This document shows, piece after piece, positions 9,534 to 19,685 of a stretch of DNA of 64,000 nt; positions within the stretch are counted from its first letter, which is position 1, and every line of letters starts with the position of its first letter. The stretch is from Chloroflexota bacterium (lineage in GTDB: Bacteria > Chloroflexota > JAJPGV01). The notes under the pieces were generated by a model that was not told where the DNA came from, did no database searches, and was given only the letters and a program-made list of their open reading frames with translations. Both the position numbers and the translations under genes were made by a program. The stretch lies in the NCBI GenBank assembly GCA_021325635.1, contig JAJPGV010000007.1, positions 1 to 64,000 on the forward strand, given 5' to 3'.

Positions 9534-9544
9534 ACTGCCGCCAA

Positions 9545-11422
<1,878 letters not shown>

Positions 11423-14487: not shown

Positions 14488-14517
14488 TTGACGGCGGTAT
14501 CCAGCTTCCGCTAGGCT
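14488..14517 (+). promoter_or_regulatory. Probable sigma-70-type promoter of imuB-dnaE2
   Basis: TTGACG (14488-14493) is followed after 18 nt by TAGGCT (14512-14517). Transcription would begin near 14524, inside the palindrome that carries the SOS-type box. A repressor bound there would block the promoter. Confidence 0.5.
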
Positions 14518-14560
14518 TAAGGCCCTTATAGAACGCTTGTTCTATAAGGGCCTTAAGCCT
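14513..14560. promoter_or_regulatory. 48-bp perfect palindrome with GAAC-N4-GTTC SOS-type box (probable LexA operator)
   Basis: Left arm 14513-14534 and right arm 14539-14560 are exact 22-bp reverse complements around the 4-nt centre GCTT. The core GAACGCTTGTTC fits the Gram-positive LexA consensus GAAC-N4-GTTC. It sits between the promoter and the imuB ATG at 14563 and leaves no room for a normal ribosome binding site. LexA binding is an inference from the core, the gene content downstream and the lexA gene at 43725-44381. Confidence 0.75.
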
Positions 14561-14562
14561 GA

Positions 14563-15861
14563 ATGAAGGATGCTGCTTCTCCCCTGGGATCGCGGCGCTG
14601 GCCGGCGCAGACGCACACCGGCTGCGTGTGGCTGCCACAGCTGCAGTTGCGGGCGGAGATCCTGCGCCATCCGGCCTGGGATGGGCGGCCGGTCGTCATG
14701 AGCGGCGGGCCGAGGGAGCGGAAAACAGTGCAGCTGTGCTCGCCTGAGGCAGAGCTGGCCGGACTGCGGCCGGGGCTGCCGCTGCGCGAGGTGCTGCCGT
14801 TGTGTCCCGACGCAATCGTCCTGCAGCCCGACCCGGTGCGAACTGCGGCGGTGCTGGAAGACGTCCTGCGCCAGCTGCAGCTCGTCACTCCGCGAGTCGA
14901 GATGAGCCGGCCATTGTGGGTATCACCGGGAAAACGCGCGGCGCTGGGCGTATTCGCCGGGCAGGAGATGGCGTTCCTCGATCTGCGCGGCAGCGAGCAG
15001 GTGTACGAGCACAGCTTCGACGCGCTGGAGCAGGCGATTCACGCTGCCGTCCCCTGGCTGCTGCAGCCCAGGCTGGGGCTCGCCGGGGGGAAGTTCGCCG
15101 CCGCCGTAGCCGCCCAGACCGCGAGCCCCCGGAGCCGGCAGGTGGTTCCGGCCGTGGAGACGGCGGCGTTCCTGGATCCGCTGTCCATACGCTTCCTGCC
15201 GTTTGCCAGCGAAGCCATCGAACGGTTGGAGCTGCTTGGCATGCATACCATCGGCCAGCTTGGGGCACTCCCCTTCTCTGCAGTCCAGGCCCAATTCGGC
15301 CGCGCCGGAGCGCAGTCCTGGCGGCTGGCCCACGGCCAGGACGGCGAGCCCATCGCGGCCGAGTCTTACGTTCCAACGGTCCGAGCCGCGCTGCGCTGCG
15401 ACGATCCACCGAGCAGCGTCGAGGCCATCCTGGCAGCGCTGGATCAGCTCCTATCGAGAGCCTTCAGCCAGCCGGCCATGCGCGGATGCTCGGCCAGACA
15501 GGTCCGGCTGCGAGCGCTGCTGGCCGACGGGAGCTCATGGGAGCGATCGTTCACCTTCAAAGAGCCGCTCTCCGGCAAAGACGCCATGCGGCGGACGCTG
15601 TGGGGCAAGCTGAAGGCGGCCAACACGCTGCCACCGGCCCCGGTGGAAGAGCTGTACCTGGAGCTGCTGGGACGGGGGCCCGAAACAGCGCGCCAGCTGC
15701 CCCTGTTCGGCCACCGCCTGCGCCAGCGCAGGGATCTGGCCCAGGCGGCCCAACAGCTTGCCGCTCGCTACGGACACATGCCTTTATACCGTCCCGTGGA
15801 GGTCGAGCCATGGTCGCGCATTCCCGAGCAACGATGGGCGCTTACACCCTTCGACCCCTGA
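14563..15861 (+). CDS. imuB: ImuB-like Y-family polymerase homologue
   Basis: 432 aa. It resembles Y-family polymerases (CVWLPQLQLRAEILRHPAW at the start, LGLAGGKFAAAVAA, RLELLGMHTIGQLGALPF helix-hairpin-helix, then a little-finger region). The acidic catalytic residues are not evident: the first motif lacks Asp and the second reads EMAFLDLRG rather than SIDEAxLD. That is the hallmark of ImuB, which acts as an adaptor in translesion mutagenesis. A beta-clamp binding motif, QLPLF, is at 378-382. The dnaE2 gene overlaps its 3' end by 52 nt. ImuA, the usual third member, is absent. Confidence 0.85.
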   Translation: MKDAASPLGSRRWPAQTHTGCVWLPQLQLRAEILRHPAWDGRPVVMSGGPRERKTVQLCSPEAELAGLRPGLPLREVLPLCPDAIVLQPDPVRTAAVLEDVLRQLQLVTPRVEMSRPLWVSPGKRAALGVFAGQEMAFLDLRGSEQVYEHSFDALEQAIHAAVPWLLQPRLGLAGGKFAAAVAAQTASPRSRQVVPAVETAAFLDPLSIRFLPFASEAIERLELLGMHTIGQLGALPFSAVQAQFGRAGAQSWRLAHGQDGEPIAAESYVPTVRAALRCDDPPSSVEAILAALDQLLSRAFSQPAMRGCSARQVRLRALLADGSSWERSFTFKEPLSGKDAMRRTLWGKLKAANTLPPAPVEELYLELLGRGPETARQLPLFGHRLRQRRDLAQAAQQLAARYGHMPLYRPVEVEPWSRIPEQRWALTPFDP

Positions 15862-18800
15862 ACGTTGCCCAGCCCCTCGCCGTCAAAACCGGCCCGGCGG
15901 GCCAGCCCCTGGCCGTGCGACGAGCAGGCCGGCAGCGCTGGCGTGCCGTCCTGGAGGTACAGGATTGCTGGCGCATCGACGACGAGTGGTGGCGCGAACG
16001 GCCGGTCTCGCGGCTGTATCACTGCCTGCTGCTCGAGGATGGCGGGCGCCTGACGGTGTATCACGACCTGCTCTCCGGGAGCTGGCTCGAGCAGCGCGAG
16101 GCCAATAGCCCACGGTGGGGCAGCAGCGGCCAAGGAATTGCCCGAGAAGCCACGCTTCACGTCCAGTCCCAGCCTGCCAGTCAGACTTCGCTGTATCACG
16201 AGCTGCACCTGCATACCTGCTTCTCCTTTCTCGAAGGCGCCTCACAGCCCGAGGAGCTGATCGACCGCGCACATGAGCTGGGTTACCGATCCCTGGCCAT
16301 CACCGACCACGACGGCCTGCACGGGGCAATGCTGTTTGCCCAGTACGCCAGCAAGAAGGCCGGCATCCGGCCGGTCACCGGCGTCGAGCTCACGCTGCGG
16401 CACGGGCTGCTGGCCGGCCGGCAGAGGACACATCCCGAGCCCGAGGAGACGCACGAGAGAGTCCATCTCACCCTCCTGGCTGAAAACCGTGAGGGCTACG
16501 CCAACTTATGTCAAATCATTACGGAGGCGCACCGCACCAGCCCTCTCGGAGACGTGGCGCTGGATCCCGCGTTCCTGGAAGGGCACACCAGGGGCCTCAT
16601 CGCGCTGTCCGGCTGCCGCCAGGGCGAGATCGGCCAGCTCGTCGATCGCGGCCGGCACGACGATGCGCTGGCGGCCGCCCGGCTTCTCGCGCAGCTGTTC
16701 GGCGCTGCCAGCACCTACGTCGAGCTGCAGCACAACCGGGTACGCGGCGACACGGTTCGTGTGGCCCACCTGGTCCAGCTGGCCGAGGAGGCAGGTCTGG
16801 CGATAGTCGCCACCGGGAACGTGCACTATCACCTGCGGGAGCGGCACCGCCTGCAGGACGCCCTCGTGGCCATCAAGCAACGCGGCACGCTGGAGGGAAC
16901 CCATCAGCTGCGGCGGCCCAACAGCGAGTTCGCACTGCGCTCGCCGGAAGAGATGGCGAGCGTGTTCGCACGCTATCCCGAGGCCATCCGAAACACCGGG
17001 CTCATCAGTGAGCGCTGCTCCGAATTCCGTCTGGACGAGGAAGGCAGCCTGCACTACGGCTTTCCGGATTTCTTCCATAAGGACGGTGAACAGAACTGCT
17101 CCGACGACCAGGTGCTGGCCAACTACTGCTGGTCGAAGCTCGACGAGCGCTACGCGGCGCCGGACGACGAGCAGACGTGGGGACGGGTCAAACCACCGGG
17201 CTTCCGCAAGGAGACCCTGGCCGAGGCCAAGGCCGTGCGAGAACAGGCCAGGAAACAGCTACGGGAAGAGCTCGCCCTGGTCGCCAGCCACAAGATGTCC
17301 GGCTTTTTCCTGATCTATCGGGACCTCCAGGCGCTGGCCACCGAGGTAGCCGGCGAGCTGCGCAGCAGCGGCGATCCGCACGAGAACCGCCGCTCCCTGC
17401 CGCCAGGACGGGGCCGTGGATCCTCGGTCAGCTCGATCATCTGCTACCTCATCGGACTGTCCCACGTCGACCCGGTGCGCCACCGCCTGTTCTTCCGGCG
17501 CTTCCTGAACGAGGAGCTCCAGACCGTCCCGGACATCGACCTGGATTTCAGCCGCGAGATTCGCGAGCAGCTGATCCTGCGCGTCTACCAGCGCTACGGA
17601 CACGATCACGCCGCGCTGGTATGCAGCTTCGCGACCTATCACATCCGCAGCGCCATTCGCGATCTGGGCAAGGTGCTGGGGCTCCCGCTGCCGGCGCTGG
17701 ACAAGCTGGCCAAGCTGTCCGAGGGCGGCTCAGCCACAACCGTGAAGCTCGAGCTCGAGCGATTGCCGGAGTTCAGAGGGCAGGGAGACGGACCGCTGTG
17801 GCAGCATCTCATCGAGCTCGCGGCCCAGATAGACGGATTTCCGCGCCACGTCTCGCAGCACGTGGGCGGCATGATCATCTCCTCGCGGCCGCTGGTGGAG
17901 ATCGTCCCGGTGCAGCCCGCCAGCATGGAGGGGCGGTTCATCTGCCAGTGGGACAAGGACTCCTGCGACGATGCCCACTTCGCCAAGATCGACTTCCTGG
18001 CGCTGGGCATGCTGTCACTGGTCGAAGAATGCCTGGACATGATCGGCCGGAACCGGGGCGTCAAAGTGGACCTGACGTCGCTCGACTACGACGACCAGGC
18101 CATCTACGACGAGATCCAGGCCGGTGACACCATCGGCACCTTCCAGATCGAAAGCCGCGCGCAGATCCAGATGCTGCCGCGGACGCGGCCCGAGAACCTG
18201 GACGATCTCGCCGTCCAGGTGGCCATCGTTCGCCCCGGGCCGATCGTGGCCAACGCCGTGAACCCCTACGTCCGGCTGCGGGAGAAGCTGCGAGAAGCTG
18301 CTCAAGGAAGGGGCCAAACTCCCGCTCTCCGGACGATGGGCCACAGTCTGCCGGCCCCTTTGAGAGACGCGCTCGACGCCATCCTCCGGGAGACCCTGGG
18401 CGTGGTGATCTTCCAGGACCAGGTGCTGGAAATCGCCACGAGCGTGGCCGGATTCACGCCCGGCGAGGCGGACAGATTCCGGCGGACGATGAGCCGCCGG
18501 CGATCCAAAGAAGCCATGGAAGGCTTTCGCCAACGATTCATCGACGGCGCCGCGGCCAGAGGAGCGAGCCGGCAGGAAGCCAACTCCATCTTCGAGAAGC
18601 TCTCGGGGTTCTCGGACTTTGGCTTTCCCAAGAGCCATGCCTACGCGTTCGCGGTGCTGGCCTATCAGTCGGCTTGGCTGCGGCACTATTTCGGCCCGGA
18701 ATACTACGCCGCGCTGCTCAACAACCAGCCAATGGGCTTTTACGAGCCGAACGTCCTGATCGGCGACGCCAAGCGGCGCGCCATCAACGTCCTGCAGGTG

Positions 18801-19685
18801 TCAATCAATCGCAGTGGAGTGCGCTGCAAGCCGGGCAGCGAACAGCTCCTGCTCGGATTGAACCTGGTGCGAGACATGAGCGAGGAAGCAGCCGCGGCCA
18901 TCGTCCGCGAGCGCGAGCTGAACGGCCGCTACACGTCGCTGCCCGATTTCCTGCGGCGTATCAACATCCCGCGCCAGGTGGTGGAGCACCTGATCGCCAT
19001 TGGCGCGCTGGGCGAGTTCGGGCTGAGCCGGCGCGAGCTGCTGTGGCAGCTGGGACTGCTGCTGCCACAGTCGCCCTCGGCGCCAACGCTGCGGCCGCGC
19101 AAGAGCAGGCCTCAGCTGCCACTGGCGCTGCCGAACGAGCAGGACATGGTGAGCTTGAGCGATATGAGCGAGTGGGAACGGATGGTGGCCGACTACCAGG
19201 TGCTGCGTCTGTCTCCCAGCGCCCACCCCATGGGGCTGCTGCGCCAGGACATTCCGCGGGACGTCCTCCCGGCAAAGGAGCTGGAGGAGGTAGGGGACAG
19301 GGCACACGTCCGTACGGCCGGGATGGTCGTTTGCCGGCAGCGTCCGGGAACGGCAAAGGGCATCGTCTTTCTGCTGCTAGAAGATGAGACCGGCATCACC
19401 AACGTCGTGGTGCGCCCGGACCTCTACGAAGCCCAGCGCAGCCTGGTCCGCGGCGAGCCCTATCTGCTGGTCGAGGGAGAAGTCCAGATCCGATCCGGCA
19501 GCCTCAACCTTCTTGCCCAGAAGCTGTCCCCGCTGCTCGCCAAGCGGCCGCCGCGGCTCACGCTGCGACACGGCTACCCCGGCAATCCCAACGACATACG
19601 CGAGCATCCGGAGCTCTTCGTTGACGGATCGGCAAAGCCAGAAGCGCTCCACCGGATGGCCCCACCCAGCCATGATTTCCACTAG
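15810..19685 (+). CDS. dnaE2: Error-prone DNA polymerase DnaE2 with N-terminal DUF6504-like domain
   Basis: 1291 aa from an ATG with a GGAGG ribosome binding site 7 nt upstream; the open frame further upstream is a shadow of imuB. Residues about 1-95 (LAVRRAGRQRWRAVLEVQD, DDEWWRERPVSRLYHCLLLEDG) look like the small DUF6504 protein often found beside DinB or ImuB. The PHP domain starts near 129 (ELHLHTCFSFLEG). The polymerase palm has PDIDLDF at 574-580 and KIDF at 726-729, giving the three catalytic Asp residues. A helix-hairpin-helix and an OB-fold (VRTAGMVVCRQRPGTAKG) close the protein. It performs damage-induced mutagenic synthesis together with ImuB. Confidence 0.93.
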   Translation: MVAHSRATMGAYTLRPLNVAQPLAVKTGPAGQPLAVRRAGRQRWRAVLEVQDCWRIDDEWWRERPVSRLYHCLLLEDGGRLTVYHDLLSGSWLEQREANSPRWGSSGQGIAREATLHVQSQPASQTSLYHELHLHTCFSFLEGASQPEELIDRAHELGYRSLAITDHDGLHGAMLFAQYASKKAGIRPVTGVELTLRHGLLAGRQRTHPEPEETHERVHLTLLAENREGYANLCQIITEAHRTSPLGDVALDPAFLEGHTRGLIALSGCRQGEIGQLVDRGRHDDALAAARLLAQLFGAASTYVELQHNRVRGDTVRVAHLVQLAEEAGLAIVATGNVHYHLRERHRLQDALVAIKQRGTLEGTHQLRRPNSEFALRSPEEMASVFARYPEAIRNTGLISERCSEFRLDEEGSLHYGFPDFFHKDGEQNCSDDQVLANYCWSKLDERYAAPDDEQTWGRVKPPGFRKETLAEAKAVREQARKQLREELALVASHKMSGFFLIYRDLQALATEVAGELRSSGDPHENRRSLPPGRGRGSSVSSIICYLIGLSHVDPVRHRLFFRRFLNEELQTVPDIDLDFSREIREQLILRVYQRYGHDHAALVCSFATYHIRSAIRDLGKVLGLPLPALDKLAKLSEGGSATTVKLELERLPEFRGQGDGPLWQHLIELAAQIDGFPRHVSQHVGGMIISSRPLVEIVPVQPASMEGRFICQWDKDSCDDAHFAKIDFLALGMLSLVEECLDMIGRNRGVKVDLTSLDYDDQAIYDEIQAGDTIGTFQIESRAQIQMLPRTRPENLDDLAVQVAIVRPGPIVANAVNPYVRLREKLREAAQGRGQTPALRTMGHSLPAPLRDALDAILRETLGVVIFQDQVLEIATSVAGFTPGEADRFRRTMSRRRSKEAMEGFRQRFIDGAAARGASRQEANSIFEKLSGFSDFGFPKSHAYAFAVLAYQSAWLRHYFGPEYYAALLNNQPMGFYEPNVLIGDAKRRAINVLQVSINRSGVRCKPGSEQLLLGLNLVRDMSEEAAAAIVRERELNGRYTSLPDFLRRINIPRQVVEHLIAIGALGEFGLSRRELLWQLGLLLPQSPSAPTLRPRKSRPQLPLALPNEQDMVSLSDMSEWERMVADYQVLRLSPSAHPMGLLRQDIPRDVLPAKELEEVGDRAHVRTAGMVVCRQRPGTAKGIVFLLLEDETGITNVVVRPDLYEAQRSLVRGEPYLLVEGEVQIRSGSLNLLAQKLSPLLAKRPPRLTLRHGYPGNPNDIREHPELFVDGSAKPEALHRMAPPSHDFH

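Follow-up and report, generated by a model that had tools for sequence, protein, structure and literature searches.

The 64,000-nucleotide stretch of Chloroflexota DNA analyzed here (the window; contig JAJPGV010000007.1) raises the question of whether a small domain, elsewhere the tail of ImuB or a protein in its own right, is truly joined to the N terminus of the DnaE2 error-prone polymerase, and what such a junction would mean for the way the two work together.

One open frame encodes a small domain, a linker, and a complete DnaE2

An earlier note, made from the letters of the DNA, had described a start supported by GGAGG and a frame running unbroken into the PHP domain, and both descriptions were borne out. 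On the forward strand, a single open frame extends from the ATG at 15810 to the stop at 19685 (1291 aa) with no interruption through the PHP domain, and a GGAGG ribosome-binding site, read from the sequence at 15798 to 15802, lies 7 nt 5′ of this ATG. The frame is composed of three parts. Residues 1 to 96 (15810–16097) form the ImuB-C (DUF6504) domain, assigned by family, fold, and profile comparison. Residues 97 to 128 (16098–16193) form a linker whose codons include neither a stop nor an ATG, GTG, or TTG in frame and for which AlphaFold2 gave pLDDT values below 50 at residues 104 to 117 in a first model and 98 to 125 in a second. The remainder (16194–19685) is the DnaE2 error-prone DNA polymerase, with PHP from about residue 131, palm, fingers, HhH, and OB regions recognized by Pfam (PHP at residues 131–308, DNA_pol3_alpha, finger, HHH_6, and OB domains), and the fusion protein passes the NCBIfam error-prone polymerase model NF004225 (954.8 bits; cut-off 939). 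It is thus confirmed that an all-beta domain of about 96 residues, a disordered linker of about 32 residues, and a complete DnaE2 are encoded as one ORF.

The N-terminal domain belongs to the DUF6504/ImuB-C family

The N-terminal residues had been called DUF6504-like by pattern recognition. The profile search proposed as a check did not support this for the single sequence: residues 1 to 128 of the window copy gave no match of any kind in Pfam or NCBIfam, PF20114 (DUF6504) being absent even at E ≤ 10. For the family as a whole, the call held. Fourteen of 48 members (alignment A1, rows hand-picked for diversity) matched PF20114 (DUF6504) at E ≤ 0.1, the best at 5.5e-5. By hhalign, the family profile scored 95.7% against the C terminus of Sphingomonas ImuB, residues 437 to 512 of which match PF20114 at 6.7e-7, 95.4% against Agrobacterium ImuB, 95.2% (E 2.5e-8) against Deinococcus deserti ImuB-C, and 86.2% against the strong PF20114 group of the same phylum. 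As the window copy has no direct Pfam match, we file it as DUF6504/ImuB-C by profile homology and not by a Pfam cut-off.

The D. deserti ImuB-C protein, which is annotated as a “DUF6504 family protein” and encoded between a Y-family polymerase and DnaE, itself matches PF20114 at 6.3e-7. Judged by this match, DUF6504 and ImuB-C are two names for one family. In the literature it goes by the name ImuB-C, given in 2013 by Aravind et al. to the C-terminal domain of ImuB that also occurs alone (PMC3765255). No paper under the name DUF6504 was present in the literature searched.

Relatives of the domain are encoded in 189 confirmed stretches of named genomes, and the best 80 of these make up the set analyzed (the relatives’ rows L001, L020, and L021 were skipped in one step). 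Across the 81 rows of alignment A2, the residues W54 to R62 (WRIDDEWWR), R68, and W92 are invariant, and the window domain retains every residue that is invariant in the family. The AlphaFold2 model has six strands in the region from residue 21 to residue 95, with block pLDDT values of 90 to 97 for residues 21 to 90. The window domain shows both the C-terminal tryptophan (W92) and the predicted all-beta fold by which ImuB-C is recognized. A profile search of the PDB with the domain returned nothing at E ≤ 10, and a fold search yielded no convincing solved relative (best Foldseek E 0.6; best VIA Z 6.1, to affimers, below the trusted level). Our confidence in both the domain identity and the open frame is high. 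The strongest PF20114 matches of the phylum (L103–L119, alignment A3) constitute a separate subgroup with an extra mid-domain RRGRMARNMQPAHA-type stretch.

The upstream imuB gene overlaps the fusion by 52 nt

Immediately upstream on the same strand lies imuB/imuY (14563–15861), encoding a Y-family polymerase of 432 aa (IMS Pfam match, E 5.8e-8) that itself lacks an ImuB-C domain. Its best alignment to a PDB entry, which does not reach the N-terminal Asp, puts Glu135-Met136 where Pol IV has its catalytic Asp-Glu, so the window ImuB is probably an inactive Y-family subunit. Residues 378 to 382 spell a clamp-type motif, QLPLF, resembling the clamp motif QLPLW of Mycobacterium smegmatis ImuB (PMC11791113).

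The 3′ end of imuB overlaps the start of the fusion ORF by 52 nt in the −1 frame (15810–15861), and this overlap is conserved in relatives. An identical distance from the start to the imuB stop was found in 56 of 79 placeable rows (a set without L194, L196, and L197) and in 58 of 82 rows of a second set (85 minus L052, L054, and L072, which have no usable ImuB). In 53 rows, the start codon NTG is made of the wobble base of an ImuB proline codon and the tryptophan codon. This wobble base is A in 32 of the 53, against approximately 5.9 expected from the other proline codons of the same genes and a maximum of 16 in 20,000 draws, an excess indicating that initiation at the overlap start is under selection. 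We also considered that the domain might be an ImuB tail severed by a frameshift, but rejected this because most placeable rows share the −1 overlap and the start codon is under selection.

The domain occurs in three layouts, and the fusion recurs

The usual layout in relatives is a free-standing ORF for the domain, placed between imuB and dnaE2 and mostly ending only a few codons after residue 95. A DnaE2 match lay downstream in 61 of the 80 named loci, and in none of these 61 was it fused to the domain. In 16 relatives, the domain and DnaE2 share one frame and are separated by exactly one stop, so a single stop loss would suffice for fusion; in UBA6077 (G088, identical to L024), a close relative, GGT TAA GGG ATG separates the two. 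In three relatives of the same phylum (L013, L014, and L017), the domain is instead in frame with ImuB, as in the canonical ImuB layout, and all three layouts are therefore present within one phylum. The statement that DUF6504 usually has a gene to itself next to dinB or imuB is too narrow: the domain is free-standing in ImuY–ImuB-C–DnaE2 cassettes but is also the ImuB C-terminal domain in alphaproteobacteria. On a Thermomicrobium roseum plasmid (L135, 2724–3974), a RecA-like gene and a short ImuB-like gene accompany DnaE2; the end of this ImuB (WW...R...LADGQ...) appears ImuB-C-like by eye, yet gave no DUF6504 match.

Among the matches listed for 400 genomes of the phylum, 14 span the domain and PHP, and three of these are free of stops: the window and two further in-frame fusions, G136 and G072, which have different linkers. 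The check for the fusion in other Chloroflexota was therefore positive. In G136, which carries the fusion at the end of a contig and has CTG at the start position, the linker is Pro/Ala/Gly-rich, about 39 residues long, and, like that of the window, free of any ATG, GTG, or TTG between the domain and PHP. In G072, a frame of 990 codons running to the contig end carries Pfam DUF6504 (E 0.0035), PHP, and pol3_alpha matches, with one GTG in the linker. A search of all 29 genomes in the class to which G136 and G072 belong found no further fusion, and 393 genomes from a different class of the phylum added none. The fusion is thus rare: 3 of 400 phylum genomes, among the matches listed, and 0 of 61 named loci. 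The window genome was the only one of its class compared, so no close relative confirms its fusion.

The trees exclude rows with a DnaE2 shorter than 600 aa or an ImuB shorter than 250 aa, and in both of them L196 and L197 duplicate L024 and L032. The combined ImuB and ImuB-C tree (92 rows) requires three changes and places G136 beside the unfused UBA6077 (SH-aLRT 98%); two are required in the DnaE2 tree, whose 58 rows do not include G136. The long branch of G072 makes its position in the tree unsure.

The fusion as a probable single chain

Could the joined frame be an assembly or sequencing error, with two genes that are in truth separate as in the relatives? Free-standing ORFs are the rule there, 16 relatives have both ORFs in one frame with a single intervening stop, and an indel near 16096 to 16100 would give a frame ending CAA TAG (QRGQ*), by eye close to the QRG* of the relatives. 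DnaE2 would then, however, be left without any ATG, GTG, or TTG start before 16329, the next one in frame after the domain codons and already inside the PHP domain. Since separate genes would thus deprive DnaE2 of an ordinary start, and since in-frame fusions with other linkers recur in two more genomes, we regard such an error as unlikely. A different objection accepts the fused frame but has DnaE2 made also, or mainly, from an internal start such as the CTG at 16191, the domain being a dispensable read-through product. This CTG stands immediately before the first residue of DnaE2 homology, Y129, and the G072 linker has its GTG; against this, no Shine-Dalgarno sequence precedes the CTG by eye, and the domain retains all family-invariant residues and has a confidently predicted fold. 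We consider production from an internal start quite unlikely. The ImuB-C/DnaE2 fusion is, in our reading, a real and recurrent new form of a known cassette.

Relation to known mutasomes

The order of an inactive Y-family polymerase, ImuB-C, and DnaE2 is shared by the window with the D. deserti cassette (Deide_1p01880/1890/1900) and the Kyrpidia/DnaE2X systems (PMC8072749, PMC6511836, PMC12926913), as is an SOS-type operator, a candidate one in the window. In the 63-contig draft genome of the window, a single Thermomicrobium RecA/ImuA-like query matched one RecA-like locus, with no ImuA apart from it. Unlike in those cassettes, ImuB-C of the window is covalently joined to the DnaE2 N terminus, and the next upstream gene, by eye, is not lexA. 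DnaE2X systems have been described as a “split ImuB” in which an inactive PolY goes with RecA and an ImuB-C that stands free (PMC12926913); by analogy, the window appears to hold a system of this type whose barrel has been transferred to DnaE2.

The canonical ImuA-ImuB-DnaE2 mutasome of Mycobacterium, Caulobacter, and Sphingomonas has the same modules, but its barrel is the C terminus of ImuB, whereas in the window the barrel forms the DnaE2 N terminus and nothing follows the tail of ImuB. The free ImuB-C genes of Chloroflexota and Gemmatimonadota have the same domain in the same place, often with the same 52-nt imuB overlap, but stop soon after the domain where the window ORF continues. An accessory function inside a C-family polymerase chain also has a parallel in PolC and DnaE1 with a built-in or fused DnaQ (PMC12926913), although the accessory there is a proofreading nuclease and in the window a putative mutasome docking barrel. 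The papers on ImuB-C that were searched and PMC3919608 contain, in the passages covered, no mention of an ImuB-C/DnaE2 fusion.

A proposed docking role for ImuB-C

Two roles have been proposed for ImuB-C in the literature, damaged-DNA binding and DnaE2 docking. The earlier note had concluded that a fusion implies direct work with the mutagenesis polymerase, and we agree that the fusion suggests that ImuB-C acts directly on the polymerase, in agreement with an AlphaFold study published in 2026 in which the most extensive predicted DnaE2-ImuB interface is that between PHP and the ImuB-C barrel (PMC12926913). Because the domain is joined to DnaE2 on its PHP side in more than one genome, nature itself supplies independent evidence for such action. 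We propose that the ImuB-C beta-barrel normally bridges the inactive Y-family subunit (ImuB/ImuY) and the DnaE2 PHP domain, with ImuB/ImuY, which carries the clamp motif, supplying the clamp and RecA/ImuA contacts. Fusion would make the contact between ImuB-C and PHP intramolecular; the fused barrel would dock on PHP, and the enzyme would presumably act in lesion-bypass mutagenesis. An AlphaFold2 model of ImuB-C together with PHP gave two folded domains and a disordered linker (pTM 0.74), a result compatible with docking and equally with its absence; a mixed alignment of separate domain and PHP rows (A4) was poor and was not used.

Alternatively, ImuB-C may be the damaged-DNA sensor envisaged by Aravind et al., in which case the fusion would equip DnaE2 with its own lesion-recognition module instead of a dock. 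That role was proposed from gene context and conserved basic residues (PMC3765255), and R55, R62, and R68 are indeed invariant in alignment A2. Nevertheless, the free ImuB-C adjoins dnaE2 in these genomes and the published model places the barrel on the PHP domain (PMC12926913), and we find a sensor in place of a dock unlikely. That the window encodes an ImuY–ImuB-C–DnaE2 cassette in which ImuB-C is fused to the PHP side of DnaE2 and bridges PHP and the Y-family partner is, by contrast, a reading that we consider probable, our confidence in the docking mechanism as such, a modeled one, being moderate.

More tentatively, ImuB-C may be a mobile docking cassette that has the PHP domain of DnaE2 as its true partner and that different lineages attached to ImuB, left free, or joined to DnaE2, the last up to three separate times; the DnaE2-joined form could then be a pre-assembled mutasome polymerase that does not depend on ImuB for its barrel. 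We put this wider view forward as possible rather than probable. For structural and biochemical work on this multi-subunit complex, the fusion offers a single-chain construct.

A candidate SOS operator precedes the cassette

Just before imuB, a perfect inverted repeat of 48 nt (14513–14560; 22-nt arms, 4-nt loop) holds the LexA-box-like sequence GAACGCTTGTTC at 14531 to 14542. Its form, GAAC-N4-GTTC, is what we take to be the LexA box consensus. A perfect GAAC-N4-GTTC occurs near the imuB start in 46 of 80 family rows against 0.47 expected (44 of 78 without the duplicates L196 and L197). By chance, about one would be expected per window (mean 0.81), and among the matches listed, the genome as a whole showed no excess (58 against 57 in the control). 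The case for SOS regulation therefore relies on the position and conservation of the box, which indicate that the cassette is probably under SOS/LexA control.

As RNA, the palindrome at 14513 to 14560 folds far better than shuffled sequences (z −6.3), and its 3′ arm contains a possible imuB ribosome-binding site, AAGGG; an additional effect on the mRNA is thus possible. Elsewhere in the genome, TATAGAAC-N4-GTTCTATA has just two near-copies, each with 2 mismatches, in L217 (near 1503) and L218 (near 514). One immediately precedes an integrase-like ORF, and the other lies some 70 nt ahead of an ORF whose product begins MPAFTDK (both named by eye); they possibly mark further SOS genes. Farther upstream in the window, a TPP riboswitch (RF00059) was found at 9536 to 9641, just before a large ORF (9641–11422) that is thiC-like by eye.
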